From Chitinophagaceae bacterium (GTDB lineage: Bacteria; Bacteroidota; Bacteroidia; Chitinophagales; Chitinophagaceae), in the NCBI GenBank assembly GCA_024508725.1, contig JANINS010000003.1, positions 1,302,001 through 1,366,000 on the forward strand: a DNA stretch of 64,000 nucleotides, read 5' to 3'. Shown here piece by piece: positions 1 through 64,000 of the stretch (positions within the stretch are counted from its first letter, which is position 1; every line of letters begins with the position of its first letter). Made by a program: the position numbers and the translations under genes. The notes below the pieces were generated by a model, which was not told the DNA's origin, made no database searches, and was given only the letters and a program-made list of their open reading frames with translations.

Positions 1-3000
1 ATAAGTACATCCTGCAGTAACATCCCTGTTCACATTGCTTCCGTTAGCAATTACCGTTGTACTGCCAGATGTAAGTGTTGCATTGAAATGAGATGGTGAA
101 ATATCACCACCGCTGTGATAGAAAGTCTGGCCAATGATCTGTCCTTTCAGGATCGTTTGATTGCTTGATTTCGTGATGTCTGCACAAGGAGCGAAAATGG
201 TTCCATGTACATTACCGCTGCCCTGGATATTGAGTGCAGTTGCATTATAGAAATTGTAGATCACATATTTCGCATTCTCGTCGCTCAAACCATTGTGATT
301 ATACGCTTTCCAGTTATATGTACCTATTGCATCAACATTAATAACCAGGATTCTGCTGGCAGAAGGTTGATTGGTAAATGTGATCTCCTGTACATTCACA
401 AGATCAGTGCCTTTTACATTCAGGTAGTTCACTGCATTTGGCAACTCTACTCTTACCTGGGATGGTAAGTTGGTATGTGCCAATATTACATTGCTGTAAT
501 TTTTCAGTATCACATTGTCTGAACCGGTGCTCATGCTTACAGCACTCGCTTTCATCTTAGTGAATGCAGCATCGAAGTCGATCAATCCACTTTCGAACAC
601 CGGATTGTTGGTAGCACTTACGTTGATGTTATTAGCGCTCACCTGCAGGTTGATCCTTGGTGATGCATTATAGTTATTGTTTGGCGTGATGCGGATCGGA
701 GAATATGCGTTATTCTGGTCTTTATACCATGCATAAGCACCATTCGCTGTGCCGATCTTAACATACCCGTTCTGGTTCACATTCATATTACCGCTCTGGA
801 AGTTCACTTTGCCACCTACCACCAGCGTAACAGGCACATTCGATACTTTGAAAGTTCCTTTATAATTATTCGATACTTCGTAATTACCGGCAAGCGTCAT
901 ATCACCACCAATTGCAACGGGGCCCATTGTTTTGCTGCCGATAAGTGTTGCATTCTTTTGTGTGAACACTGTAAAATCAAGTGCAGGCGCAACAGGATTT
1001 TGCGTGATCATAGTACCGGAAACAGGTCCGGCAATCACCGGTGCATTGTTATCTGCTACGGTTACAGTGTATTTGTAAGTAACGGTCTGGCCATTGCTTA
1101 CAGCAGTCCATGTTACCAATGTAACACCTGCATTAAACGTTTTACCTGCAAGGCTTGTACCCGTACCTGTAGTAGCACCCGTTAATACATACGTAGCTGT
1201 TACCGGTGTTCCGTTTACAGTAGCTAAAGCGTTATCATTTGCAGTAGCCACATAAGAACAACCGTTCTTAGTTATGTTTCCGTTGTCTGGCACAGGACCT
1301 GAAACAACAGGAGGATAATTTTCTTTAACGATGATCTGTTGTATGGCAGAAACTGATCTTCCTAAACCATCTTTCACTGTCCATGTGATGGTTGTTGTTC
1401 CAACCTGGTATTGATTGTTTGCCGGTGCATTGTTGGTTAATGTGGCCGGATCAACAGATACCGTATATGTAGCTGTACCAATGTTATTGATCACAGCATA
1501 ATTCTGGCCGGCGATCGCATCAACAGTGATCGTTGCCGGTGCAACAATCGTTGGAGCTGCACTCACTACGGTTACGGTAGTAGTGGTAGTGGTTGAATTA
1601 CCGTGAGCATCTGTCAACGTCCAGGTTACGGTGGTAGTTCCTACAGGGAATTCTGCAGGTGCATCGTTCTTCAATGTATAAGGGCCTACTGCCTGGAATG
1701 CAGGATCAACCAATACCACCTGTGTAGAATATGGCTGACCCGGATCGTTGCTGATGGTAATATCTGCCGGTGAAGTGATCTGAGGAGCAGGCACCGTAAC
1801 GACAACTTTCTGCACATCGCTTGCTTCTCTGCCAATACCATCTTTAACGGTCCATTCAACGAACGTCGTACCGATAGGATACTGAGCCAATGTTCCGGTA
1901 GTTGTTACGGTAGCAGGATCGATAGATACTGTTGTTGTTGGTGTACCCAGGTTTGGTGCTGTTGCAAAGCCGTTGTAGTCTGCCACTATTGTGATAGCCC
2001 CTGGTGCAGTGATCGATGGTGCTGCACTCACTACTGTAACCTTACTGGTTGTAGTGATCGTTTTTCCATAAGCATCGGTCAATGTCCATGTGATCACGGT
2101 TTCGCCTAATGGTAATTGTGCCGGTGCATCATTCGTTAATGTATATGGACCTACTGCAGAGAATACAGGTTCAGGAAACGTTACACCTGTTGCATAAGGA
2201 AAACCTTGTTCATTATTTACTGTTGTATCTGCCGGTGCTGTAATAACAGGTAATGGTGCTTCTACAGTGATCACCTGACTAGCGGTTGCTGTTCTGCCAA
2301 GACCGTCTTTTACAGTCCATGTAATAGTATAAGTTCCCGGTGCATAATCAACTTTACCTGCTTCAGCAGAGTTGGATACCGTTGCATCATTTACAGAGAC
2401 CGTATAGCTGGCATCTCCAAAAGTATTGATGGTTGCAAGTCCGTTGTACCCTGCAGTTACGGTGATGGCAGGAGGTGCAGTGATGGTTGGTAATGCACTA
2501 ATTACTGTTACAACCTGGGTAGCCGATGCTGTTTGCCCCAGTCCATCTTTCACCGTCCAGGTAACTGTAGTGGAACCATCAGGTAATTGAGCAGGAGCAT
2601 TATGACTTAGAACATTCGGCCCCCAATTAGAAATATAGGTTGCCGTATCCGTTAATATCGCAGTGCTGTATGACTTTCCCGGATCATTGGTCAAGGTGAT
2701 GTTTGAGGGTGCCAGAATTGTTGGTGGAGGCACTACAACAACTCTTTGGGTATCTGACACGGTAATACCATTTCCATCAGTTAATGTCCAGGTGATTATT
2801 GTATTTCCATTTGGATATTTTGCGATCGCATTATTTATTACACTTACTGGCTCAGTAGCTGTATAAACCGGGCTTCCGAGGTTTACATTCGATGCATAGT
2901 TCATCAATGAATCAGAGGGCACAACTATCATTGCCGGCACCTGCAATACAGGAAGTGTAATATTCGCACAGCCTTCTAATGGTTCCCTTACTATAATTTC

Positions 3001-4629
3001 TGTTGAACAAGTGGTAGTATTACCATCAGAACAGGTTACACTTAATGTGATGTAATATATACCAGGACCCGAAACTGTTGCAACAGGGTTGGCAATGCTG
3101 GAATCACTGAAGACAACATTTCCCTTATCGCTTGTCCATAAAATCTTTGCAGGTGCAGAACCATCAGAACAAGTAGGAGAGGCATTTAACTTTACACCAA
3201 CTGATTTGTTTCCGCAAGTGAGTGCCTGGTATGGACCGCCTGATATACAACCGGCATTGATCGGCTGCAAGCCACTTCCTCCCATATATCCATACGATGC
3301 TACCGAACCAAAACCAGTAGTTACAAGCCCCATTTTCTTATCCGCAGAAATGTTATGAACGCCTGCACTTGTAGCAATTGTTGCTGCTTTATATAGTACC
3401 CCATTCACCGTTCCAGCCGTTATCCAATTTGGAGAAATGATCACTCCATCAAGATTTAGTTTAGTTCCTGCAGGTGCTACAACATTGATGAAATTACTAG
3501 GGAATGAGCTAGGCACTACATAACTATAGCGATATTGAAACTGGTCTATAACTGGCATGGCCATTAACGCAGGATCTCCAATACCAGCGACTGGCGTTCC
3601 TGAGTTTTGACTTACTATATACTGGAAACCATAAAATGATTTATTTCCACTCACGACATGTGGAGTAGAGGTAGTTATCTCCAGAAAATCTCCTTTCTTC
3701 ACAAGAACGCCACCTCCGACATTAGGAGAGGTAGTAATTACGGTATTGTCTTCTGTAGCAACATAACGAAATACATCCTGGGCACAATTACCATATGCAC
3801 AGTTAAGTGGCCTTGCATTCGTTGGTGATGCTATATATGTTTTTGATAGCGATTCAATAGGAACGATTTGCTCATCAAGATGATCAGAAGCTCCATTGCT
3901 ATTTCCTACTCCTGTAAATTGTGTTCCGGATAAAACTCCTACAGGTTTATCAGCTTCAATAAACCATCCGGTAACGTCTGAAGCCAATGCGTTGCCATTT
4001 AATCTTTGAAAACATTCGCCTTTATTTATCACTACATTGTCGACAAGAGTACCAGCACGGTTATAAGTCTTTACCGTAGTGTTATCCTGAGATGCAACTA
4101 CGTCAAAGTAAGAATTGCCGCTTCCTCCAAGTGGATGTATGTATGAAATTGCCCTGTATTGTTTTCCCAGACCATGGGTAGGCAACACCAGTGCTGCATC
4201 ATTAGTAATAACGTTATAAAATGGATTGAAGCTGTATACAATCACATTTTCATTGGATGTTACGTGGTAGACGTTATTCTTATAAACATTCGTACTTACA
4301 TTACTTGCATTTGGATTTACAGCTGGAATGATATTCGGGTTTTCCGTTGGAAAGAAAAACATTTCCAATGCTCCGGCTGCCAATGTCCTAGTGATAGTTG
4401 GTTTTACGGGATTGGTAATTATTACCGTAGCCGGCTGACTTCCCTGGTTAGAAACGGAAATGGCAAACTGGGCTGTATCCGTTCTTGCGGACTTTCCATT
4501 GGGTGTTTGCACTACCCAAAAATCTTTGCCTGCATTAGTTTGGGAAATTGCCTGAACAGAACAGAAAAGCAAGATAAACATACAAATGGCTCTGCCCATT
4601 TGCACGAAGCATTGAGATGTAGTTTTCAT
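1..4629 (-). CDS. Giant secreted IgGFc-binding/HYR-repeat/choice-of-anchor A protein, C-terminus beyond window
   Basis: The minus-strand frame is open from an ATG at 4629 to base 1 (1543 residues, no stop), so the C-terminus is missing. The first residues form a signal peptide (MKTTSQCFVQ, then a hydrophobic core ending near VQAISQ). Residues about 115-460 resemble the IgGFc-binding N-terminal domain (SFNPFYNVITNDAALVLPTH; later a Cys-rich NCAYGNCAQDVF segment). Residues about 565-1195 hold at least seven HYR-like beta-sandwich repeats of 76-82 residues, each with a T-WT-DG/DA motif such as VTWTVKDGLG. Residues about 1215-1510 match a choice-of-anchor A domain (VAIGGDMTLAGNY, VVGGKVNF, then NVHGTIFAPCADI). 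The protein is probably exported and surface-bound or released. A type IX sorting tag would be expected in the missing part, but this is inference. Function is adhesion or matrix at best guess. Confidence 0.85.
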   Translation of the reverse strand, partial: MKTTSQCFVQMGRAICMFILLFCSVQAISQTNAGKDFWVVQTPNGKSARTDTAQFAISVSNQGSQPATVIITNPVKPTITRTLAAGALEMFFFPTENPNIIPAVNPNASNVSTNVYKNNVYHVTSNENVIVYSFNPFYNVITNDAALVLPTHGLGKQYRAISYIHPLGGSGNSYFDVVASQDNTTVKTYNRAGTLVDNVVINKGECFQRLNGNALASDVTGWFIEADKPVGVLSGTQFTGVGNSNGASDHLDEQIVPIESLSKTYIASPTNARPLNCAYGNCAQDVFRYVATEDNTVITTSPNVGGGVLVKKGDFLEITTSTPHVVSGNKSFYGFQYIVSQNSGTPVAGIGDPALMAMPVIDQFQYRYSYVVPSSFPSNFINVVAPAGTKLNLDGVIISPNWITAGTVNGVLYKAATIATSAGVHNISADKKMGLVTTGFGSVASYGYMGGSGLQPINAGCISGGPYQALTCGNKSVGVKLNASPTCSDGSAPAKILWTSDKGNVVFSDSSIANPVATVSGPGIYYITLSVTCSDGNTTTCSTEIIVREPLEGCANITLPVLQVPAMIVVPSDSLMNYASNVNLGSPVYTATEPVSVINNAIAKYPNGNTIITWTLTDGNGITVSDTQRVVVVPPPTILAPSNITLTNDPGKSYSTAILTDTATYISNWGPNVLSHNAPAQLPDGSTTVTWTVKDGLGQTASATQVVTVISALPTITAPPAITVTAGYNGLATINTFGDASYTVSVNDATVSNSAEAGKVDYAPGTYTITWTVKDGLGRTATASQVITVEAPLPVITAPADTTVNNEQGFPYATGVTFPEPVFSAVGPYTLTNDAPAQLPLGETVITWTLTDAYGKTITTTSKVTVVSAAPSITAPGAITIVADYNGFATAPNLGTPTTTVSIDPATVTTTGTLAQYPIGTTFVEWTVKDGIGREASDVQKVVVTVPAPQITSPADITISNDPGQPYSTQVVLVDPAFQAVGPYTLKNDAPAEFPVGTTTVTWTLTDAHGNSTTTTTTVTVVSAAPTIVAPATITVDAIAGQNYAVINNIGTATYTVSVDPATLTNNAPANNQYQVGTTTITWTVKDGLGRSVSAIQQIIVKENYPPVVSGPVPDNGNITKNGCSYVATANDNALATVNGTPVTATYVLTGATTGTGTSLAGKTFNAGVTLVTWTAVSNGQTVTYKYTVTVADNNAPVIAGPVSGTMITQNPVAPALDFTVFTQKNATLIGSKTMGPVAIGGDMTLAGNYEVSNNYKGTFKVSNVPVTLVVGGKVNFQSGNMNVNQNGYVKIGTANGAYAWYKDQNNAYSPIRITPNNNYNASPRINLQVSANNINVSATNNPVFESGLIDFDAAFTKMKASAVSMSTGSDNVILKNYSNVILAHTNLPSQVRVELPNAVNYLNVKGTDLVNVQEITFTNQPSASRILVINVDAIGTYNWKAYNHNGLSDENAKYVIYNFYNATALNIQGSGNVHGTIFAPCADITKSSNQTILKGQIIGQTFYHSGGDISPSHFNATLTSGSTTVIANGSNVNRDVTAGCTY
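1330..2930 (-). repeat. HYR-like repeats, about 230-245 nt period
   Basis: Within the giant secreted gene a recurring block that encodes T-WT-(V/L)-(K/T)-D-G/A lies near 1368, 1610, 1840, 2072, 2303, 2547 and 2775 on the minus strand. The spacing is 228-244 nt, or 76-81 residues. Two subtypes alternate, one with KDGLGR-like and one with TDAHGN-like turns, so the array may have grown by duplication of a two-domain unit. The copies are clearly diverged at DNA level. Confidence 0.8.
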
Positions 4630-4812
4630 TGACGGTGATTGTTTGTACAACCAATACGAAGGTTGAGCACGGGTGTAATCAGGGTAGGCTAAGGGATATT
4701 CCCTTGACGTTTCACATATAATTCTTATGAAAAGCTGGTTGCAAATAACCCATTAAATCATTGAAGGAAATGTTTCCTTTTCGTCAAAGGATGCGACAAA
4801 AAAAGCAATAAA

Positions 4813-4850
4813 AAAGGGAGATATTATTCACTCGAATAATATCTCCCTTT
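4813..4850 (-). terminator. Strong intrinsic terminator behind the lasso precursor
   Basis: There are two perfect 16-base arms, 4813-4828 and 4835-4850, with a 6-base loop. On the minus strand the stem is followed by a T-rich run. It lies 19 bases after the stop of the lasso precursor gene and separates that locus from the giant secreted gene starting at 4629. The 183 bases between the stem and that start show no gene. Confidence 0.85.
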
Positions 4851-4869: not shown

Positions 4870-5004
4870 CTAGCTTAGACCGAAAGCCAGATCATCATCT
4901 CCGGAGCCTCCTCCTTTTGTATCATTTGAAATCGATAATACTGTAATTTTTGGTTCACTCCAAGTTGCTTTAACTACAGTCTGATTTAGGTTTTCTTGAT
5001 GCAT
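4870..5004 (-). CDS. Lasso peptide precursor (A)
   Basis: This 44-residue ORF is MHQENLNQTV...ending in GGGSGDDDLAFGLS. The leader (residues 1-30) contains W15-x2-P18-x-I20-x2-L23, close to the Y/W-x2-P-x-L recognition motif bound by lasso B1 proteins. Thr29 sits at position -2 from the predicted cut after Lys30, which is the hallmark of lasso leaders. The core would start with Gly and carries Asp at core positions 6, 7 and 8, so a Gly1-Asp7 or Gly1-Asp8 macrolactam with a 6-7 residue tail (LAFGLS) is likely. The gene starts 36 bases after the cyclase stop and is followed by a strong terminator. It is recognised by motif and neighbours; the exact ring residue is inference. Confidence 0.85.
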   Translation of the reverse strand: MHQENLNQTVVKATWSEPKITVLSISNDTKGGGSGDDDLAFGLS

Positions 5005-5040: not shown

Positions 5041-6891
5041 CTATTCGAAAATATATTTTTTTTCCATCAGGTGTTGGATAACCATCTCTGAGATACCAAC
5101 GAAGCACACTTTATATCCGTTGGGCCTGGGCGTTGAAACCAGGTCTAACTCTTTTAAAATTTTTTTCATCACCCGTCTATTGAAAAATTTATCATATAAA
5201 ATGTTGCTTTGATCAGAACTCAGCTTTTGAACAACTGGTGCAACTTGTTTAGTCATTCTTTCAAAATGATCTACTACATAAGGTGACTTTGTTTTTCTAA
5301 ATTGTAGTGATGAGGGGAGTAATCCTTTAGTAGTATGATGCATTATAGATCGTAAATGCCCCCCTTTAAGAAAAAGCGATAACGGGATATCTGCCATAAC
5401 CTCCATCAATTTGCGGTCAAATAACGGTGTAGCAGCTTCCATGGAATAAAACTGGTTTCTGGTATCAAAAACGGATAGATATGTGTTGATCCTTCCCTTA
5501 TTAATTAAAGAATTTATAACTGGCAGTATTGAATACGTGGGTGAAACTGAGAACTGGTTTATAAAGTTTTTATTCCAGATTGAATCGAGAGAATAAAGAT
5601 CGGGCCGCAGCAAACGATAAACAGGAGTATTGGCAATAAAGTGCCTGTGAGTTGCTCTTGGAAAAGATATATTTTCAACCGCTGAGATTTTTTTTAGTAG
5701 GTGCAAAACCGTTTTCCATCTACCTTGTTTCGCCAAAAGGTTTAAAACGCCACGACCTTTTGCTGATAAGTAGAAATCACCACCGAAACCAGAATACAAA
5801 AGACTTATTCCTTTTTCGGATGCGGCTTCCTGTATGGCAATATCCATATAGTGGAATTTATCAGGAATTATCTCTTCGATCTCAAAAGAGTTGACTACAT
5901 GATCAAATGGACCTTTGTTATTAGCAGATACATTAACTCTAACCAGGTTGTCACAATGTTTATGGATAATGTCAATATAGTTAGACTCATCCTTTAATTT
6001 GCCTGAGTAATTATCTTCCAGAACAGCGGAGAAAGTATATAACTGCTGATTTTTTTTCTTAAGAATTTCTGATAGAATACAGGTTATTGTGCTGGAATCT
6101 AGTCCCCCACTTAACATCACACCTACGTTTTTATTTATTGTTAACCTTGATTCAACAGCTTTGTATAAATAATGCCGAATGCAATCGTACCATTGTTCAG
6201 CTGTTTCGAATCGATATTTGTCCTGATGCTTTAAATTCCAATATTTTTCGATAAGACATTTTCCCGTGTTCAGCCGTAATACTGTAGCGTTAATGATTTT
6301 TTTGATGTCTCTATTGTAAGTTGCTGATTGATCCCCCTGAACATAATAGTGAGTTACGAGGCTGTTTCCATCGAAATAATTTGGCGTGGTTTTTACCGCC
6401 TCTATCCCTTTGATCTCGCTGCAAAAAATAAATTGTTCGGGTGAATCATAATAATATACTGACTTAAACCCGATATGATCATTAGAGATAAATAGTTCAT
6501 TTGACAGCTTATTCCAGATCGCATACACATATTCCCCATCTAAATGGTGTACACTATCAACTCCCCATTTTTTAAATGCCTCCAGTATCAAATAAGAGTC
6601 AGGTGTTTTTGAATACTGCAGTTTATCGAACCCAAGTTTAGTGAGCAGTTCATCTCTGTTATGCAAATGGGCATTGGCTGTAAAAACAAGATCTCCATCC
6701 TGTATAGGTAATTGTTCATGTTCCTGATTGGGATAAACTACAAGGTTGCAAAACCCAAAAGCTGCATTATCGCAGATCAATTCTTTACTGCCGTCTTTTG
6801 CACGGTGCAATAATGCCTGCTTCATCTTTTGCAGCATCTCGGGGTCTAACGGTTTACCATTCTTATTAATTATTCCATATATCGCACTCAT
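5041..6891 (-). CDS. Lasso peptide macrolactam synthetase C (asparagine synthetase B-like)
   Basis: This 616-residue protein has the two-domain layout of class B asparagine synthetases. An N-terminal Ntn glutaminase-like domain covers about residues 2-200, with HRAKDGS at 29-35 in place of HRGPD and HLDGEYVYAIW at 116-126. A synthetase domain follows, with the ATP pyrophosphatase loop SGGLDSS at 261-267 and a GFGGD motif. Residue 2 is Ser (MSAIYG), so the catalytic Cys2 of glutaminases is absent. This fits lasso cyclases, which adenylate the core Asp/Glu and close the ring without glutamine hydrolysis. It lies between the B2 protease gene and the precursor, all on one strand. A stand-alone asparagine synthetase is unlikely given the missing Cys and the neighbours. 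Confidence 0.85.
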   Translation of the reverse strand: MSAIYGIINKNGKPLDPEMLQKMKQALLHRAKDGSKELICDNAAFGFCNLVVYPNQEHEQLPIQDGDLVFTANAHLHNRDELLTKLGFDKLQYSKTPDSYLILEAFKKWGVDSVHHLDGEYVYAIWNKLSNELFISNDHIGFKSVYYYDSPEQFIFCSEIKGIEAVKTTPNYFDGNSLVTHYYVQGDQSATYNRDIKKIINATVLRLNTGKCLIEKYWNLKHQDKYRFETAEQWYDCIRHYLYKAVESRLTINKNVGVMLSGGLDSSTITCILSEILKKKNQQLYTFSAVLEDNYSGKLKDESNYIDIIHKHCDNLVRVNVSANNKGPFDHVVNSFEIEEIIPDKFHYMDIAIQEAASEKGISLLYSGFGGDFYLSAKGRGVLNLLAKQGRWKTVLHLLKKISAVENISFPRATHRHFIANTPVYRLLRPDLYSLDSIWNKNFINQFSVSPTYSILPVINSLINKGRINTYLSVFDTRNQFYSMEAATPLFDRKLMEVMADIPLSLFLKGGHLRSIMHHTTKGLLPSSLQFRKTKSPYVVDHFERMTKQVAPVVQKLSSDQSNILYDKFFNRRVMKKILKELDLVSTPRPNGYKVCFVGISEMVIQHLMEKKYIFE

Positions 6892-7026: not shown

Positions 7027-7431
7027 CTAGAACTGAGCGATCACTGTATAGGTACTCACCTGTTGCCAGCCGGTAACAATAAAGTCACCACTTTTTAACC
7101 AGGCATGGGCATCGATGCTACCGGATGTATTTTTTCGTACGCCAAAGTAGGTGGCTCTTTGTATGTTGCGGCGTTGCAACATCAGGCCTGCGGCCAAAGC
7201 CTGCTCAAAACATTGGGTACGCCATGGACTTTTAGTACAAGCTCGTGCAACAGCCAATTGTATTGATTCCAGTTCTTCGATTGAGACGTTCCTGGCATCT
7301 GTGTCTGCTTCAAGTGAGGGCACTATCTCTTTAAACTCACGAAACACGAGCATTAACCTTGCTTTCGCCAGGAAATACCAGGCCTCAGCAAACAACTTAT
7401 ATTCATGTATCCCGGGCCTTTCTTTCTTCAT
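7027..7431 (-). CDS. Lasso peptide leader protease B2 (transglutaminase-like)
   Basis: This 134-residue protein belongs to the transglutaminase-like lasso B2 family, which cuts the leader from the precursor. The catalytic triad is visible: Cys in WRTQCFEQALAAGL, His in DAHAWL, and a following Asp in KSGDF. The helix HEYKLFAEAWYFLAKARLML near the N-terminus is typical of these proteins. The ATG at 7431 is preferred over an in-frame GTG at 7467 because a -7 box TATATTTG ends 5 bases before it. The gene lies 62 bases after the large type IX cargo gene on the same strand, and 135 bases before the cyclase. No B1 (PqqD-like) domain is fused to it or lies next to it. Confidence 0.8.
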   Translation of the reverse strand: MKKERPGIHEYKLFAEAWYFLAKARLMLVFREFKEIVPSLEADTDARNVSIEELESIQLAVARACTKSPWRTQCFEQALAAGLMLQRRNIQRATYFGVRKNTSGSIDAHAWLKSGDFIVTGWQQVSTYTVIAQF

Positions 7432-7436
7432 CGGCT

Positions 7437-7444
7437 CAAATATA
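7437..7444 (-). promoter_or_regulatory. -7 box TATATTTG before the B2 gene
   Basis: A perfect TAnnTTTG on the minus strand ends 5 bases before the ATG at 7431. The same box-to-ATG layout recurs in this window (gldA, the typA gene, nth, the 15.6 kb small gene). It supports a separate promoter and a very short leader for the lasso genes. No -33 element is evident. Confidence 0.45.
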
Positions 7445-7493
7445 ATCCTGCCCTTGCTAATGTGCACTCTTACTCAACAAGTCTTATGATTGC

Positions 7494-10400
7494 TTATTGT
7501 TTCAGGAACTTACCGGTGTACACCGTTCCATCAACCTCCACTACAGTAAAATAATATATTCCTGCAGCTAAGACTGATACATTGATGGTATTAACAGAAC
7601 CACCCAGTTTCTGCTGTAACAGCGTTGCTCCAAAGCTGTTCCTGATCACCAGGGTACTATTAACAGATGAAGACAATTGAATGTTTAATACATCTTTTGC
7701 AGGGTTAGGATACACCTTGATCTCACCTGCATTTTTTATATCAACCTGTGCAATATTGCTGAGCTTTTGCGCTCCATCTTTTTCTACTGATCTTATGCGA
7801 TAGTAGCTGCTGCCAGCAAGTGGCTTAACATCTGTAAAACTATAGTTCACCGGAACATTGCTGTTTCCTTTAGATGCTATCGTTGCAATGCTGCTGAAGT
7901 TTCTGCCATCTGCACTTCTTTCTACCACATATTGCTGTACATCCTGCTCAAATGCAAGATCCCATCTTACCTCTACCGCCTTATCTTTTTTTGTTGCCGC
8001 AACCCCTAAGAAAGATACCGGCATTACAGACGTAGAAGACCTGAACACCAGTTTAAACCTTCCGCCTTGTGTAGCAGCATTGGATGTGATGCTGAAGTCA
8101 TAAACCGGGTTTGCTTTAATATCGGTTTGCGTGCCGCTGTACAGGTCAAGCAAAATGATCTGTGCCGCTTCGGTAAAATTATCATACTCAGAAAAATTGA
8201 GCCTGAAGTTGCCGGTTGCACTGCTTACGATACGAACAAGGACAGTATCATTGTAAAAACTCAGCGGACGTGACTGGATGGCAAAGCTCCTGTTGCCTTT
8301 GATCGCTGCAACAAAATTCCCGGTGTTGAGAGTAGCAGCATCCCAGTCACGGCTTTCTGCAAGTGATACTGCAGGATCGTCAGAGAAGCGAACTACCATG
8401 TTATCGATAAATGTTCCGTCCTGTTGTTCGAATGTTGTACGGATGATCTTGTTCACTGCATTTGTTCTGAACACACCCTGCTGGGCAGAAGACGTTTTAT
8501 GCGATTCGCTGAAAGTTGCTGTGCCGCCATTGATGCTTTCTACAAAAAATGCTTGTCCGCTGGCGATCCTGTTACCATTGGCACTCGTGATGATATTGCT
8601 CGGACGGTTACCTGCTACTACACCCATGCTGTACACGAGGTAATTGGTATTATCACTTCCCGGATCGTAGGTCCAGTATTTATTGCTGATGACTCCGCTG
8701 TTGGCAGTATAAAAACTGCTGAAATCAACTTCACATGCATAAGGATTACCAATAAGGGTATAACCATATGTGCCTGTTGTTTTAGCACTGATGGTAACCG
8801 GTACATTGCCGGTAGTTAATGTACCTTTTACTTTGATCACTGTTGCGACAGGTGCAGATGGATTAGCCGTACTAAGTTGATCGCTGCAGGCATTGGAAAC
8901 ATTGCGGTTACCCCTTATCAGCATACGATATCCTTTGCCTTTTTCTACATTGGTTGATGTAGTGTTTGGTATAGCGATCCATCTTGCGGCATTACTTTGA
9001 TCGTAGGTATATACTGTAGGAGCATTTCCGCTGCTGACATCAAAGCCATTGCTGTTGTATTTGGTACTATCGGTAGCACACGTTGTGCCTCCAGTGCCAG
9101 CACCTGTAATAAAGATATCATCCTGCAAAGCATTCCTGAATGTTTCTCCTGCAACTGCTGAAGCAACAAATGACCATCTCCTGGTAGTTTTTGCACTGAA
9201 ATATCTTTCAACTGCTAACTTACCTACAATAGCAAAATTTGAGGGGTTGATGGCTAGTATTCTTGCTGACCCGCTTGCAGCCGATGTTAGCACCAGTGTA
9301 TCGTTGGTATATAAAGTACCTGCAGTAGGTGTAAGTGTTCCTCTTAACCTGAGCTCATTACCTAAAGTAACCGTACCGCTTAGATTGGTTCTGTTGATCG
9401 TAAGGTTATTGATGTGATTGGTGCTGGTGGTATCTGACTGATCAAAATACAATGTACCCAGGGCACCGCTTCCACCAATAGTGATATTAGCTGTAGCAGA
9501 TCCGGTTAATGACTTTGTTGCATTCATTCCCGAAACCGTTCCATTTAATGTAAGTGTGTTGTTACCGATGGAAAGTTTTCCATTATTGATAACAAGCGAT
9601 CCTGTTACTGTTATTGCTCCATCCAACGATGCACCGGAAGTATTAGAAAGATCGAAGTCGTTGTAAGTGCCGGTAACTGCGGTTTGGGCGTTACTTCCTG
9701 CATATTTAATAGTGCCGCCCCAGGTTCTACCAGAAGGTAGTGGTGTAGCGCTTACAGAAGCTGTGCTGATCGTACCATTGTTGGTGATACTGCTTAAAGT
9801 ACCACTGAGGGTGTAAGTAGAGAGGTTGAATGTACCTGCTGCAATATTCAATGATCCATTCACTATTATATTTCCATTGGCTGTATTGCTTCCGCTGGTA
9901 TTAGAGAGTGTAAGATTATTGTATGTGCCGTTTGCGATGGTTTGTCCTCCTGTGGTCAGCACATACTGTATGGTACCGCCCCAGGTTTTTCCTGTTGCGA
10001 GAGCTGTGCTGCTGGTAGAAGAAGTTTTGATCGTACCGCTATTGCTTACACTACTCATTGTTCCCGTTAGTGTATTGGCACCCAGATCTAAAGTTCCAGC
10101 ACCGTTGGTAAAACCACCATTCACAACAATATTTCCGTTAGCTGTGTTTGTACCACTCGCTGCTGAAAGTGTGAGATTATTATAAGTACCATTTACAATG
10201 GTTTGGCCTCCACTGCTTACCGCATATTGAAATGTTCCGCCCCAGTTTTTTCCTGCAGGAACAGGAGCAGAAGAAGTATTTGATGTGATGATCGTTCCAC
10301 TGTTGCTCACACTACTTAGTGTTCCTGTTAATGTATTAGTAGATAAATTAAATGTTCCTGCACCATTGGAAAGTGTTCCGTTTACCACAATATTTCCGCC

Positions 10401-12740
10401 TGCTGTATTAGTGCCGGTAGCTGCTGAAAGTGTAAGATTGTTATACGTTCCGTTCACTATTGTTTGTGCACCATTTGTTGCAGCATATTGCACTGTTCCA
10501 CCCCAGGTTTTACCTACAGGTATGGGTGTAGAAGAGGTGTTTGAAGTAATGATGGTACCGCTGTTAGTAAGACTTGTTAGTGTTCCGCTTAAAGCATAGG
10601 TACTCATATCAAGTGTAGAACTACTTGCTACAGACAAAGCTGTATTCACAACGATCGCTCCTGAAACTGTTTTAGTACCTGACCCACTCAGTGCTAATGT
10701 GGCATACGTTCCGCTACGAAGTGCTTGTGCAGTACCGTTAAGGTTGATCGTGCTGGTACCGCAGGTAAATGTTCCGGTAGGTGAAAAATCGCCGGATACA
10801 TTTAGAGTTCCTGAAGTTAAAGTCAACGTACCTGCACCTGTAACATTACCATTAATCGTGTATGTGTTGGCAGCTGCATTAAATGTAGCACCAGTATTAA
10901 TTACGAGATTACCAAAGGTTTTATTATTGATAGATGGAGTTGTAGCAGTTGAATGTTTATAATTACTTCCGCTTTGCAAGCTGATCACATTGTTACTGGT
11001 GAAATAATCAAGTCCTACCTGGTCTTCTAATGTAGATCCTGATGCAAAAACAATGGATCCTGCCGTGGTGCTTCCGAAAGGATTTCCTGTTAAACCGGTT
11101 CCACCTGTAAAAGCGCTTCCGTTCTGGAATGTGATCGCACCTGCTGATGCTGCAGTTAATGTATGTCCCTTACCTGAAAAGTTGATCGCTCCTGAAACAG
11201 CACCGGTATTACCGCTGTTGATTGCAATAGCAAGTGTATTGCCTGTGCTGATAACATTCAATACTGATCCTGCTTCTATTTCAAGATCATCACCTGTACC
11301 TCCAGTTAAAGTAAACGTTCTTGAACCATTCGTTAACCCTGCAGTAGTGATATTGACAGTAGTATTGTTCTTAATTACTATTCTTTTGAATGATCCTGCA
11401 GGTATATTTAAAGGAGTAGCCGTTCCTCCTTTAGAGAACATCACTATATCGTTTGCGGTTGGAGGTCCGGCAAAATTTACCCATGCATTAGAGGTTTGCC
11501 AATCGTCGGTAAAATTACCTACTGCTGTAGTGTTATTCCAGATACAAACACGTACGAAGTTGTAATTAGACCCTGTAAAACTGAAGTTATTTACCGTTTC
11601 CGAGTTTTCAGTATACACGTTACTGTTTGAAGCTCCGCAACTACTACAGCTCATAGAAAGCTGAATGCTGCTTGCTCCACCACCTGTTGCAATATCAGTA
11701 ACCAGAAAGTAATTTTTTGTAGTGCCTTTGGCGATATCCTGTTCTATACCCGTGATATTAAAATAAGAACCGTACAGGTTTACGGTAACACCCGAAAGAA
11801 GTGTATTATCACCTGCAGTTGAATAATCATTATCTACAGAGCTATATATTTTAATATTACTAAAGTTGCCACTGCTGTTGCTATTGGTATTGCTGATGTT
11901 TACATTTTTTAATTTGACAGTGCCTCCACTTGCTGTTGCAGCAAATCCGAAAATGGCTTTATTGGTTGCTCCTTCTTCTAAATCTCCTGTTGCCAGGCCA
12001 GCCGTAAGTTGGGAGATGGTTAGGCTCTTTGCAAATAGGCCTGCATTATCCCAATAGAATCTACCAGCATTACCAGATGTTGCATTTGATTGGAAAATCA
12101 TGTAGATATTCTGAGCGCCATTCAGGAAAAGATTTGGCCATTGATTGCCTCGTAGCGTTGTAGCATCTCCTGTTCCCTGATCAACATATAATTCCCAATT
12201 ACCATTAGATTTTGCAATAACCTTAATAGAGTAAATCGTATTTCGACTAATAGTATAGCTGGCCAACTCAAAGCTGTTATTTCCGCTTGGATTGCGGTAT
12301 GTTAGCTTTAATGCGCTTCCTGAATGTTCAAGGCATACACCTGTGGTAGTATTAGGGTTTGTTGAATTTGCTGCAAGATAAAAACGCCAATGTGTTATAC
12401 TATTGCTCGTAAAATCTTCCCATGGATTTAAAGTTGAGGGATCAGAGCTTCCATTATCACGGTATAACAGGGTGAAGTTATAATTGGCAGAACCCAGGTT
12501 TGTATTTGTTCCATACTGAGTAGAGATTGAAGAGATCGATCCAGGGGTTGTATTGGTAAGGCTGTAACTACCTTCCAGAGGAGATGTTGAAGTAACGGAA
12601 TATCCGTTTGTGCCTCCCGTCCATGAAGGATTTGCAGTGATGTTACCATCATTAAAATCATCAGATACAAATGACAGTTGTGCATGGGAACGAGTAAACG
12701 CCAACATCACCAACAGCATTATTAAAATTCTCTTCATCAC
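7494..12740 (-). CDS. Large repeat-rich secreted protein with type IX type A sorting domain
   Basis: This 1748-residue protein starts with a signal peptide (MMKRILIMLLVMLAFTRSHA, cut before Q21). It continues with a beta-rich N-terminal part (FNDGNITANPSW) and then a long Thr/Ser/Gly/Asn-rich beta-strand repeat zone, about residues 420-1150, whose units carry TWGGT, NGTYNNLTLS and NIVVNG. Residues about 1560-1670 look like a fibronectin III-like fold (VEVRWDLAFEQDVQQYVVER). The C-terminus is a type IX secretion type A signal (VYPNPAKDVLNIQ, ending TGKFLKQ). It is therefore carried across the outer membrane and probably anchored on the surface. Its repeats suggest an adhesin or matrix protein, but no binding domain is recognised. 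Confidence 0.9.
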   Translation of the reverse strand: MMKRILIMLLVMLAFTRSHAQLSFVSDDFNDGNITANPSWTGGTNGYSVTSTSPLEGSYSLTNTTPGSISSISTQYGTNTNLGSANYNFTLLYRDNGSSDPSTLNPWEDFTSNSITHWRFYLAANSTNPNTTTGVCLEHSGSALKLTYRNPSGNNSFELASYTISRNTIYSIKVIAKSNGNWELYVDQGTGDATTLRGNQWPNLFLNGAQNIYMIFQSNATSGNAGRFYWDNAGLFAKSLTISQLTAGLATGDLEEGATNKAIFGFAATASGGTVKLKNVNISNTNSNSSGNFSNIKIYSSVDNDYSTAGDNTLLSGVTVNLYGSYFNITGIEQDIAKGTTKNYFLVTDIATGGGASSIQLSMSCSSCGASNSNVYTENSETVNNFSFTGSNYNFVRVCIWNNTTAVGNFTDDWQTSNAWVNFAGPPTANDIVMFSKGGTATPLNIPAGSFKRIVIKNNTTVNITTAGLTNGSRTFTLTGGTGDDLEIEAGSVLNVISTGNTLAIAINSGNTGAVSGAINFSGKGHTLTAASAGAITFQNGSAFTGGTGLTGNPFGSTTAGSIVFASGSTLEDQVGLDYFTSNNVISLQSGSNYKHSTATTPSINNKTFGNLVINTGATFNAAANTYTINGNVTGAGTLTLTSGTLNVSGDFSPTGTFTCGTSTINLNGTAQALRSGTYATLALSGSGTKTVSGAIVVNTALSVASSSTLDMSTYALSGTLTSLTNSGTIITSNTSSTPIPVGKTWGGTVQYAATNGAQTIVNGTYNNLTLSAATGTNTAGGNIVVNGTLSNGAGTFNLSTNTLTGTLSSVSNSGTIITSNTSSAPVPAGKNWGGTFQYAVSSGGQTIVNGTYNNLTLSAASGTNTANGNIVVNGGFTNGAGTLDLGANTLTGTMSSVSNSGTIKTSSTSSTALATGKTWGGTIQYVLTTGGQTIANGTYNNLTLSNTSGSNTANGNIIVNGSLNIAAGTFNLSTYTLSGTLSSITNNGTISTASVSATPLPSGRTWGGTIKYAGSNAQTAVTGTYNDFDLSNTSGASLDGAITVTGSLVINNGKLSIGNNTLTLNGTVSGMNATKSLTGSATANITIGGSGALGTLYFDQSDTTSTNHINNLTINRTNLSGTVTLGNELRLRGTLTPTAGTLYTNDTLVLTSAASGSARILAINPSNFAIVGKLAVERYFSAKTTRRWSFVASAVAGETFRNALQDDIFITGAGTGGTTCATDSTKYNSNGFDVSSGNAPTVYTYDQSNAARWIAIPNTTSTNVEKGKGYRMLIRGNRNVSNACSDQLSTANPSAPVATVIKVKGTLTTGNVPVTISAKTTGTYGYTLIGNPYACEVDFSSFYTANSGVISNKYWTYDPGSDNTNYLVYSMGVVAGNRPSNIITSANGNRIASGQAFFVESINGGTATFSESHKTSSAQQGVFRTNAVNKIIRTTFEQQDGTFIDNMVVRFSDDPAVSLAESRDWDAATLNTGNFVAAIKGNRSFAIQSRPLSFYNDTVLVRIVSSATGNFRLNFSEYDNFTEAAQIILLDLYSGTQTDIKANPVYDFSITSNAATQGGRFKLVFRSSTSVMPVSFLGVAATKKDKAVEVRWDLAFEQDVQQYVVERSADGRNFSSIATIASKGNSNVPVNYSFTDVKPLAGSSYYRIRSVEKDGAQKLSNIAQVDIKNAGEIKVYPNPAKDVLNIQLSSSVNSTLVIRNSFGATLLQQKLGGSVNTINVSVLAAGIYYFTVVEVDGTVYTGKFLKQ
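9640..10600 (-). repeat. 261-nt (87-residue) tandem repeats in the type IX cargo gene
   Basis: The block encoding TWGGT recurs with anchors at 9715, 9976, 10237 and 10498, exactly 261 nt apart each time. The units share WGGT, QTI-NGTYNNLTLS, NIVVNG and TSSTSS-like stretches and are still similar at DNA level, which points to recent duplication or gene conversion. Fainter copies continue on both sides. Confidence 0.85.
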
Positions 12741-61561: not shown

Positions 61562-61569
61562 TATATTTG
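61562..61569 (+). promoter_or_regulatory. -7 box TATATTTG before the PqqD-like gene
   Basis: A perfect TAnnTTTG ends 17 bases before the ATG at 61587. No good -33 partner was seen. Confidence 0.4.
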
Positions 61570-61586
61570 CGACAAATCATTTTTGG

Positions 61587-61874
61587 ATGAGTAATATAAC
61601 AATTGAAACAATCGTAAGCAGGAGAAACGAAGGATTGCTTGTGAGTGAATTGAGTAATGAAATGGTGATGATGGATATTGAAAGCGGCAATTATATCGGG
61701 TTAAACGAAACCGGCCGTGTGATATGGGAAATGATCGAAGTGCCTGTAAAAGTCGATGAACTTGTACAACAGCTTATTTGTAAATACGACATTAGTTATG
61801 AAGTCTGCTGTAAAGACACATTAGAATGTCTCAATAAAATGAATGAGCAGAAGATCATCAGGCATTCAATTTAA
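61587..61874 (+). CDS. PqqD-like RiPP recognition protein (lasso B1 type)
   Basis: This 95-residue protein matches the PqqD fold found as the lasso B1 protein: a beta-hairpin VSELSNEMVMMDIESGNYIGLNETGRVIWEM in pieces, followed by a helix bundle (VDELVQQLICKYDISYEVC, CKDTLECLNKMNEQKII). B1 proteins bind the leader peptide and hand it to the B2 protease and the cyclase. The lasso locus at 4.9-7.4 kb lacks a B1, so this gene is the only candidate in the window. It overlaps the end of the convergent ABC transporter gene by 17 bases. Confidence 0.88.
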   Translation: MSNITIETIVSRRNEGLLVSELSNEMVMMDIESGNYIGLNETGRVIWEMIEVPVKVDELVQQLICKYDISYEVCCKDTLECLNKMNEQKIIRHSI

Positions 61875-63651
61875 AAAATCCTTTTTCTAACTCTTGGCGC
61901 TCGTACATCTGTTTAAATAAAGGATTATTTGCAAGGAGCTCATTCACTGTACCTTCTCCATGAATCTTTCCGTTATCCATCAGGTAGATATGATCAGCAA
62001 ATTTCAGGTTATGTAAACGATGGGTGATCAGGATGATGATCTTATCTTTCTTTTTCTCAGTTATCTTTTGAAGTATCTCGTACTCAGCCAGCGGATCGAT
62101 ATTACTTGTAGGCTCATCCAATATCATTACTGCTGCATTGCGATACAACATCCTGGCAAGTGCAATTTTTTGCCATTGTCCACCACTTAGCTGCATATCA
62201 TTTCCAAACATTTTTCCTAAAGCAGTTTTATAGCCTTCAGGCATTTTTGAGACCAGTGTTTTCAGGTCTGCTTCAGTTTCTGCTGTATTCATCTTTTCAA
62301 TATCTGGTGAATGACCTAGCAAAATATTTTCTTCTACAGAGAAATGATATTGATTGAAGTCCTGGAAAATAACAGCAACATTTTTATAATAAGACTGGCT
62401 GTTAATATTAGTAATACATATGTCTTCCACCGAAATATTGCCTGAAGCTGGTGTGTACAAATTAGCGAGCAGTTTTACAAGTGTGCTTTTCCCAGATCCG
62501 TTTTCACCAATGATGGCAGTAACTTTTCCGGGTTGAAACTGCATGTTCAAATTGGTGAGTGTTTCCTCGGTAGACTCAGGGTAAGTAAATGATATGTTTT
62601 GTAACCGGATACCCTGCTGCAGTTTGTCTGGAAAGAGTGAAGAAAAGTTCTGCTCATTCTTTTTTTGAAATGATGGCAATTCAAGGAAATTCTTGATGTT
62701 GATCAGGAAAAAACGTTGTTTAAAAAGCAGTATGAAAGAATTTAAGAACGTTTTGAATACCGATTGAATTCTTTGCAATGCCTGTAGATAAAAAATAAAA
62801 CTTCCTGCAGTGATAAGTCCATCTAATGTGCTTAAACCCAGGTGCAAAATTATTGCAGCAAGGATGATGATCTCAATTGCCTGGATGATTGTTTCTGACC
62901 ATGCCTGGTTCGCCGACAAACGTTTTTTGGCCCAGAATATTTTTTCACGCAGATCCCTGAACTTATCAATAAAAAAATTGCCATAAGAAAATGTTCTTAC
63001 TTCTTTGGCATGCGTTGCATCAGTTAATATCCTGCTCAGATAATGGGCCTTGCGTTCATTAACAATGTTATCTTTTTCGAGTTGCTGAATGGCTTTTGCA
63101 TGCTTGTATTTGATCAGAAGAACAGGAACACTTGCTACAAGAACCAACAACCCGTAAACAATATTGAACTGAATAAAAATGATGCACAAAGCCAGCATAG
63201 AAAAACCACTTTGAATGATCTGGTTGTAACTTGTAGTAAGTACGCCGGCATGATACATTACCTGTTGCTGCGCTAAATGAAGTGAATTAAAATACTCTGA
63301 CTTCTCGTAATAAGGATAATCGACTGATACGGCTTTTGTAAGAACCTGCGATGAAAGATAATCGATCACCAATTGCTGTTGCACAGTTTGAATATCTGTA
63401 AGTACCTGCTGAATACCAGCCTGCAATAGTTGAATAATGACCAATGTGATCAATGCATAAATAAAATCTGTTCTTCCTGCCTGTTGATACTGCGTAACAA
63501 TATCAATGATCTCTTTTATATACCACAAGCTCAGCAAAGGCAACAGGGAAAGAACAAGCGAAAGTGCCAGGTTGTAGATGGCATATTGTTTACTGGCTTT
63601 CCAGGTGATCCTGAAGCCATTTGAAATATCGTAAAAAAGAGATTTGATCAT
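61858..63651 (-). CDS. ABC exporter, lasso D type (fused membrane and ATPase domains)
   Basis: This 597-residue half-transporter has six membrane helices (about residues 20-300). An ATPase domain (about 340-580) follows, with Walker A GENGSGKSTLV, signature LSGGQ, Walker B VMILDEPTS and the H-loop ITHR. There is no C39 peptidase domain. Such proteins export and give immunity to lasso peptides. The ATG at 63651 (MIKSLFYDISNGFRI) is preferred over an in-frame TTG at 63693. It is convergent with and overlaps the PqqD-like gene by 17 bases. A general multidrug exporter is possible, but the PqqD neighbour favours a RiPP role. Confidence 0.8.
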   Translation of the reverse strand: MIKSLFYDISNGFRITWKASKQYAIYNLALSLVLSLLPLLSLWYIKEIIDIVTQYQQAGRTDFIYALITLVIIQLLQAGIQQVLTDIQTVQQQLVIDYLSSQVLTKAVSVDYPYYEKSEYFNSLHLAQQQVMYHAGVLTTSYNQIIQSGFSMLALCIIFIQFNIVYGLLVLVASVPVLLIKYKHAKAIQQLEKDNIVNERKAHYLSRILTDATHAKEVRTFSYGNFFIDKFRDLREKIFWAKKRLSANQAWSETIIQAIEIIILAAIILHLGLSTLDGLITAGSFIFYLQALQRIQSVFKTFLNSFILLFKQRFFLINIKNFLELPSFQKKNEQNFSSLFPDKLQQGIRLQNISFTYPESTEETLTNLNMQFQPGKVTAIIGENGSGKSTLVKLLANLYTPASGNISVEDICITNINSQSYYKNVAVIFQDFNQYHFSVEENILLGHSPDIEKMNTAETEADLKTLVSKMPEGYKTALGKMFGNDMQLSGGQWQKIALARMLYRNAAVMILDEPTSNIDPLAEYEILQKITEKKKDKIIILITHRLHNLKFADHIYLMDNGKIHGEGTVNELLANNPLFKQMYERQELEKGFFKLNA

Positions 63652-63711
63652 GAGGTACGTCTGAAAACTACAAATAAACGATAGAAGCTGCAAGCAATGA
63701 AATAAGATTCA

Positions 63712-64000
63712 TCAAGACTGCTTCCTGCCGGAGATCGCTTTAGCGAAAACTCGAAAAGGCCTTGCGATGCTGAGAAGCGATATGGGTAGTTTTATTGAAG
63801 CTGCATTATTCAGATCGTTATCCGTAGGTAAGAGGGAATAAAAAGCTGAACGGAGAAGAAAATTTATTTTACCTCGCAAGTTGTCCTGTGCTGCTGTAGA
63901 ACGTTTTAAAAATTTTATGTCAGAAGGTAGAAAACTAATGATGTCAAGCGGAATAGACAATACAGCATTTATTTGCTGATCATTTAATTTATACCTGATA
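63712..64000 (-). CDS. C-terminal fragment, possible nucleotidyltransferase of RiPP clusters
   Basis: The frame is open from the window edge (64000) to a stop at 63712, giving at least 95 residues. The end reads FYSLLPTDNDLNN, then LPISLLSIARPFRVFAKAIS. This layout (LLPT-x-D, then a hydrophobic ARPFR segment) resembles the C-terminus of NTP_transf_5-type nucleotidyltransferases found next to lasso genes. The catalytic part is beyond the edge, so this is a weak call. It precedes the ABC exporter gene on the same strand by 60 bases. Confidence 0.4.
   Translation of the reverse strand, partial: IRYKLNDQQINAVLSIPLDIISFLPSDIKFLKRSTAAQDNLRGKINFLLRSAFYSLLPTDNDLNNAASIKLPISLLSIARPFRVFAKAISGRKQS

Follow-up and report, generated by a model that had tools for sequence, protein, structure and literature searches.

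A predicted lasso peptide precursor in a Chitinophagaceae bacterium, with candidate pathway genes dispersed over about 69 kb

Described and related lasso systems

Paeninodin from Paenibacillus dendritiformis is produced by a Firmicute gene set, PadeA/B1/B2/C/K, in which all genes are adjacent, B1 and B2 are split, an HPr-type kinase is encoded and the peptide ends in a Ser residue (PMC9266682, PMC5067487). The PadeB2 protein requires B1 in order to cut (PMC5067487), and HPr-type lasso kinases, of which PadeK is an example, act on the linear precursor and place a phosphate on its C-terminal Ser (PMC9266682). In pseudomycoidin from Bacillus pseudomycoides the kinase PsmK and the nucleotidyltransferase homologue PsmN both act on the C-terminal Ser, with PsmN adding a hexose to the phosphate (PMC9266682). 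The Bradymonas bsf cluster (BsfA/B1/B2/C/K/N) has a leader with Ile at -2 and a kinase, BsfK, that acts on Ser3 of the core (PMC10368454). Some lasso clusters of Firmicutes also contain a sulfotransferase gene to which no function has been assigned (PMC8498205). The literature searched, which left many subscription papers outside its coverage, contained no experimental work on Bacteroidota lasso peptides, and the search found no published dispersed lasso cluster.

The locus considered here lies within a 64,000-nucleotide stretch (the window) of a Chitinophagaceae contig, C3. The species has the same gene set as the bsf cluster, but the leader carries Thr at -2 and there is no conserved Ser at core position 3. 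As with paeninodin, B1 and B2 are split, an HPr-type kinase is found and the predicted phosphorylation site is a C-terminal Ser, although the predicted pathway is scattered. In contrast to pseudomycoidin, the predicted nucleotidyltransferase is found 54 kb from a core operon that is itself kinase-free.

The B2-C-A order (leader peptidase, cyclase, precursor) recurs in four Chitinophaga genomes and in named Bacteroidota genomes from two families; a scan of the named genomes with a single cyclase gave no matches, and the named relatives were found with an alignment of eight cyclases as query. The Chitinophaga clusters (C. filiformis, C. ginsengisoli, C. pinensis and others), which are uncharacterised, share with the window the gene order, a WxxP leader, Thr at -2, Gly1 and Asp8, together with a set comprising an HPr-type kinase, a PqqD-type B1 and a nucleotidyltransferase. 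In Chitinophaga, however, the last three lie within about 2-6 kb of B2-C whereas they are scattered in the window species, and the cores, of 14-18 residues, have Phe9 and Glu12 and often no terminal Ser. There are up to three precursors per Chitinophaga cluster as opposed to the one found in the window genome; at four loci of the Chitinophaga type (L065, L073, L058 and L060) C is followed by a tandem of two or three distinct precursors, among them GYWYFGGDVFGELS, which Chitinophaga sp. YR627 and C. pinensis have in identical form.

The cyclase closest to that of the window (41% identity) belongs to clusters of Mucilaginibacter sp. E4BP6 and an uncultured Mucilaginibacter (L053, L055), whose B2 and B1 are 46-49% and 47-49% identical to those of the window. 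Their cores, GVGDVQSDSGITGS and GSGTNGSDSMNGS, have Asp8, a tail of five to six residues and a terminal Ser, as in the window, and the clusters carry the kinase, with L053 also having a sulfotransferase like the window species. Unlike the window, the Mucilaginibacter genes are clustered and the cores have a single acid at positions 6-8. Elsewhere, three tandem genes resembling phage tail-collar (Mdp-type) genes, recognised by eye, lie between B2 and C in one related locus (L010:10369-12137). Cyclase homologues of 37-38% identity are also present in Chitinophaga oryziterrae and Chitinophaga sp. YR573 (L056, L057), where the fetched flanks contain no B2, B1 or precursor-like ORF; these could belong to further scattered clusters or be cyclases that stand alone.

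The precursor gene and its enzymes

The putative precursor gene A occupies positions 4870..5004 on the minus strand, with an ATG at 5004 and a stop at 4870, and its 44-residue translation is MHQENLNQTVVKATWSEPKITVLSISNDTK|GGGSGDDDLAFGLS (leader|core). It begins 36 nt after the C gene, with C and B2 directly upstream on the same strand. Neither Pfam nor NCBIfam models match the ORF. The assignment was made with a profile HMM constructed from 29 precursors beside related cyclases, the window sequence being left out. Its rows are small ORFs adjoining related cyclases in genomes of the same order and in the named genomes, one of them (a third C. pinensis precursor) entered with an assumed start. 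Against the 1828 stop-to-stop ORFs of the window this profile recovers the 4870-5004 ORF at E = 1.5e-9 and 34.0 bits, with the runner-up at E = 4.8, and the top score in 30 resampled windows was 9.2 bits. The 44-residue precursor proposed in the first-pass annotation is upheld by this search.

The cyclase C (5041..6891, minus strand, 616 aa) is an asparagine synthetase homologue whose best NCBIfam model is the lasso cyclase NF033535, at 336.8 bits against a curated cut-off of 525; a score below the cut-off is as expected for a distant Bacteroidota member but is not proof. The protein keeps an SGGLDSS motif, is 33-41% identical to cyclases from clusters with B2, B1 and a precursor, and begins MSAI, without the catalytic Cys after the Met. 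Glutamine-hydrolysing asparagine synthetases have a Cys at that place, and its absence is as expected of a lasso cyclase. The B2 leader peptidase (7027..7467, minus strand) scores 77.5 bits with NF033537, above the cut-off of 33, matches PF13471 and has the motif residues Cys86 and His121. It probably starts at the ATG at 7431, giving 134 aa, rather than at the GTG at 7467; its relatives are of 136-137 aa. The earlier placing of a lasso cyclase and a B2 protease next to the ORF was thus correct, whilst neither B1 nor an exporter lies near the trio.

It might be argued that the ORF is a chance reading frame with coincidental motifs and that the real substrate is encoded elsewhere, given its short length and the lack of a Pfam or NCBIfam family. 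Against this stand the homology to the 29 precursors and a profile search of the 3.9 Mb genome, with the window sequence included in the profile, that returned only A and no second precursor gene, so that this explanation is extremely improbable. A, B1 and B2 are each single-copy in the genome. A different conserved small ORF beside B2/C homologues would have spoken against A, but the ORF immediately 3' of C was found to belong to the A family in Bacteroidota that include Chitinophaga, Mucilaginibacter, Sediminibacterium and Flavipsychrobacter. On this comparison the 4870-5004 ORF is taken to be a genuine lasso precursor.

Downstream of A an intrinsic terminator-like hairpin (4813..4850, minus strand) has 17 pairs followed by a T run, with a folding energy of -23.4 kcal/mol (z = -7.5) that none of 200 shuffles equalled. 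Between B2 and C there is no significant hairpin (z = -0.72), Rfam elements were not found and a sigma-70 style promoter scan gave fewer sites than in shuffles. The trio sits between two very long minus-strand ORFs, 1-4650 and 7494-12740. The latter, upstream of the trio, encodes a type IX secretion sorting tail, and no more than 64 nt separate its end from the place where B2 probably starts; the continuation of the former, left of the window (L051), ends in a similar-looking tail.

Leader, core and ring size

The leader, residues 1-30 (4915..5004, minus strand), contains the motif WSEPKI, in which W15, P18 and I20 stand at -16, -13 and -11. The canonical RRE leader motif is Tyr(-17), Pro(-14) and Leu(-12) (PMC10368454), as compared to which Trp and Ile replace Tyr and Leu and the whole is shifted by one. 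Thr29 is at -2 and Gly31 is the first residue of the core GGGSGDDDLAFGLS (4873..4914, minus strand), with D36-D38 as core residues 6-8. A 17-row alignment shows no variation at W15, P18 and D38 and very little at T29 and G31, with Thr at 90% or more. The W-x2-P-x-I leader, the Thr at -2 and the Gly-first core with three consecutive Asp, all noted previously, are therefore as described, with W and P invariant across the precursor family. The nearest leader is found in a Flavipsychrobacter MAG (SWSDPKITVLSINENTL vs TWSEPKITVLSISNDTK).

The three Asp had been read as giving three possible ring sizes of 6, 7 or 8, a view that does not survive comparison with the family. Of the relatives that can be split at T-x|core, 22 of 26 have Asp at core position 8, a proportion that overstates the independent evidence as Chitinophaga sequences that hardly differ from one another make up much of the set, although Asp8 is also seen in Mucilaginibacter, Flavipsychrobacter and two Bacteroidetes MAGs. 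The four exceptions have Glu8, Asp9 or Asp5/Glu7, or are improperly split. An acid at positions 6 and 7 is not conserved, and relatives with a single acid in the ring region have it at 8 (GSLATSAD, GSGTNGSD, GAGAPGSD, GGGAAGTD). Because Asp8 is conserved and Asp6 and Asp7 are not, the comparison largely settles the expected ring as one of eight residues, Gly1-Asp8. Closure at Asp7, or Asp6, would be conceivable since Asp is present at 6, 7 and 8, one relative (L063) also has Asp7 beside Asp8, lasso rings range from 7 to 9 residues and seven-residue rings exist, as in the xanthomonins (cited in PMC7549694). Yet each close relative with a single acid has it at position 8, the cyclases are homologous throughout and one-residue changes in ring size are poorly tolerated (PMC13352647), which makes a genuine precursor with such a ring quite improbable.

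The tail predicted to follow the Gly1-Asp8 ring is LAFGLS, once regarded as unusually short. Relatives have tails of 5-10 residues after core residue 8, hence six residues is normal for this precursor family. The short tail, with at most one bulky residue (Phe11), does raise the prospect that C cyclises the peptide without threading, to give a branched cyclic product, and five- to six-residue tails containing small residues (GGLLS, SMNGS) are found repeatedly among the relatives. However, characterised B2/C products are threaded as a rule, and huascopeptin is of a size similar to that of this peptide. By description huascopeptin is the shortest known lasso (PMC7549694). An unthreaded product is accordingly considered rather unlikely, and a threaded tail is preferred.

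The core contains no Cys, and hence no disulfide, which is why class II is assigned; the small N-terminal residue (Gly1) and the Asp at 7 and 8 also agree with a class II precursor. That the ORF encodes the precursor of a class II lasso peptide whose pathway genes became separated on the chromosome is held with good confidence. The predicted product is of ordinary type; it is the precursor that falls outside the Pfam and NCBIfam models and the gene layout, being dispersed, that is unusual.

Three islands and a proposed pathway

The first-pass annotation overlooked a B1 and an exporter some 54-57 kb away and a kinase and sulfotransferase outside the window. B1 is not encoded in the B2-C-A cluster but exists elsewhere, as a PqqD-type leader-binding protein (61587..61874, plus strand, 95 aa) that matches PF05402 at 62 bits and NF033536 (lasso_PqqD_Bac) at 72.5 bits, just under the cut-off of 80; as with C, this is expected for a distant Bacteroidota member but is not proof. 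It is the only PqqD over cut-off in the genome, lies 54 kb from B2-C-A and shares 49% identity with the B1 encoded in a lasso cluster from Mucilaginibacter. Convergent with B1 is the gene for an ABC exporter, D (61858..63693, minus strand, 611 aa), next to that for a PF14907 nucleotidyltransferase, N (63712..64911, minus strand, E = 5.7e-40), of which 63712..64000 is inside the window; this island, 61587-64911, is about 54-57 kb from the trio. In three of five related genomes the top exporter match is inside the lasso cluster, at 429-469 bits as against 272 or less for other ABC proteins, and in a fourth, Pedobacter BAL39, the best match lies near a sulfotransferase match elsewhere in the genome. 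From these matches the exporter is judged orthologous to lasso-cluster exporters. The Pedobacter sp. BAL39 matches (L080; G559:C43 near 228-235 kb) suggest a second lasso cluster there, outside the fetched lasso locus.

The third island lies 3.7-2.8 kb left of the window, where an HPr-type kinase is encoded at L051:10264-11187 (C3:1298263-1299186). A Chitinophaga lasso kinase used as query matches at contig position 1298272 with 38% identity (E = 1.2e-57), and the protein is 46-47% identical to Pedobacter and Mucilaginibacter kinases. Its residues H114-G129-G132-G134-K135-S136-D152-D153 make up the H-GxxGxGKS-DD pattern, the same residues with the same spacing as H148...D187 of BsfK (PMC10368454). 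A sulfotransferase gene (PF00685) follows, both being 2-4 kb beyond the left end of the window; of the three related genomes that have a sulfotransferase, two have its best match inside a lasso cluster. Upstream of the kinase are sulfate-assimilation genes including an APS kinase, a run that would supply PAPS for sulfation. The stretch L051:5171-11944 contains PAPS reductase family genes, a TauE-type permease, a CysN-like GTPase and the APS kinase, and then the kinase and sulfotransferase.

Together the three islands span about 69 kb of the contig, whereas in relatives most pathway genes are within about 10 kb. Among 37 stretches of related genomes that encode C as well as B2, 34 have B1 and 34 a kinase, 29 have a nucleotidyltransferase, 13 the exporter and five the sulfotransferase; some stretches represent the same genome twice and, at 5-19 kb each, absences mean little. 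C, B2 and B1 are 41%, 49% and 49% identical to Mucilaginibacter counterparts, and for these three, as for the kinase, similarity is greatest to a single group of clusters (Mucilaginibacter, Pedobacter). This co-occurrence, the common closest clusters, the exporter and sulfotransferase matches and the kinase spacing are good evidence, at the level of gene comparison, that the islands represent one lasso pathway in three pieces.

An octamer, TATATTTG, is found at 7437-7444 (minus strand), at 61562-61569 (plus strand) and about 3.75 kb left of the window (plus strand). In each case a likely start codon comes 5-17 nt further on, that of B2, B1 or the kinase respectively, and these are the lead genes of the three islands. 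There are only five copies in 91.5 kb, one other being before a 111-aa ORF, although the total number within the window is no more than chance. We take it to fit the Bacteroidota -7 element TAnnTTTG. Shared control of the islands through this octamer is possible; the observation is post hoc and suggestive, and is not main evidence.

Genes so far apart may not be expressed together, and it is possible that the pathway is in decay. The separation of the islands, unlike the arrangement in relatives, would fit a relic broken up by rearrangement whose product is no longer made, and a sister genome of the genus (76% complete) shows weak cyclase matches only. On the other hand all reading frames are intact with catalytic motifs kept, the precursor retains every constrained position, the terminator is intact and a TAnnTTTG element stands near the start of the lead gene of each island, so a relic is thought unlikely.

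For a working pathway, the steps can be proposed by analogy with characterised homologues, from which the catalysis, threading and Ser14 modification are all inferred. B1 would bind the WxxPxI leader and present the precursor to B2, which would cleave after Lys30, the core beginning two residues past the conserved Thr. C would then activate the Asp8 side chain with ATP and join it to Gly1, to give an eight-residue ring threaded by the tail LAFGLS. Phosphorylation of the C-terminal Ser14 by the HPr-type kinase probably precedes folding, after which phosphorylation the nucleotidyltransferase may add a sugar to the Ser14 phosphate, and the ABC protein would export the product.

The only core Ser residues are 4 and 14, with Tyr and Thr absent. 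Ser14 is the likely kinase target because it ends the core, just as a Ser does in most relatives outside Chitinophaga. From the kinase, and from a C-terminal Ser that many relatives also have, the product is predicted to be C-terminally phosphorylated, with a calculated [M+H]+ of 1329.4995, and possibly glycosylated, with 1491.5523 calculated for a further hexose. The corresponding values are 1267.544 for the linear core and 1249.533 for the ring-closed form, one water lighter, while a phosphate and a sulfate would differ by 0.0095 Da. The target is less certain than the ring, as many cores of Chitinophaga relatives with a kinase have no terminal Ser and BsfK acts on core position 3. A more speculative proposal, put forward tentatively and as an outside chance, is that of a working pathway of three separately transcribed islands over ~69 kb making a short-tailed lasso that is held threaded by the decoration of its C-terminal Ser and not by a bulky residue. 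An equally tentative extension is that the decoration consists of a phosphate, then a sugar, and perhaps a sulfate added by the sulfotransferase beside the PAPS-making genes. A role for the product as an anionic secreted peptide, directed against competitors or used in signalling, is no more than conjecture.

The comparison defines a precursor family with a WxxP leader, Asp8, a short tail and often a terminal Ser, for which concrete ring and mass predictions are now available. When a search is limited to the B2/C neighbourhood, B1, the exporter and the tailoring enzymes can go unnoticed and, with these genes found at a distance here, lasso clusters judged to be incomplete may instead be scattered. 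Moreover, the set of kinase, nucleotidyltransferase and sulfotransferase makes it testable why short-tailed lasso peptides carry C-terminal decorations.
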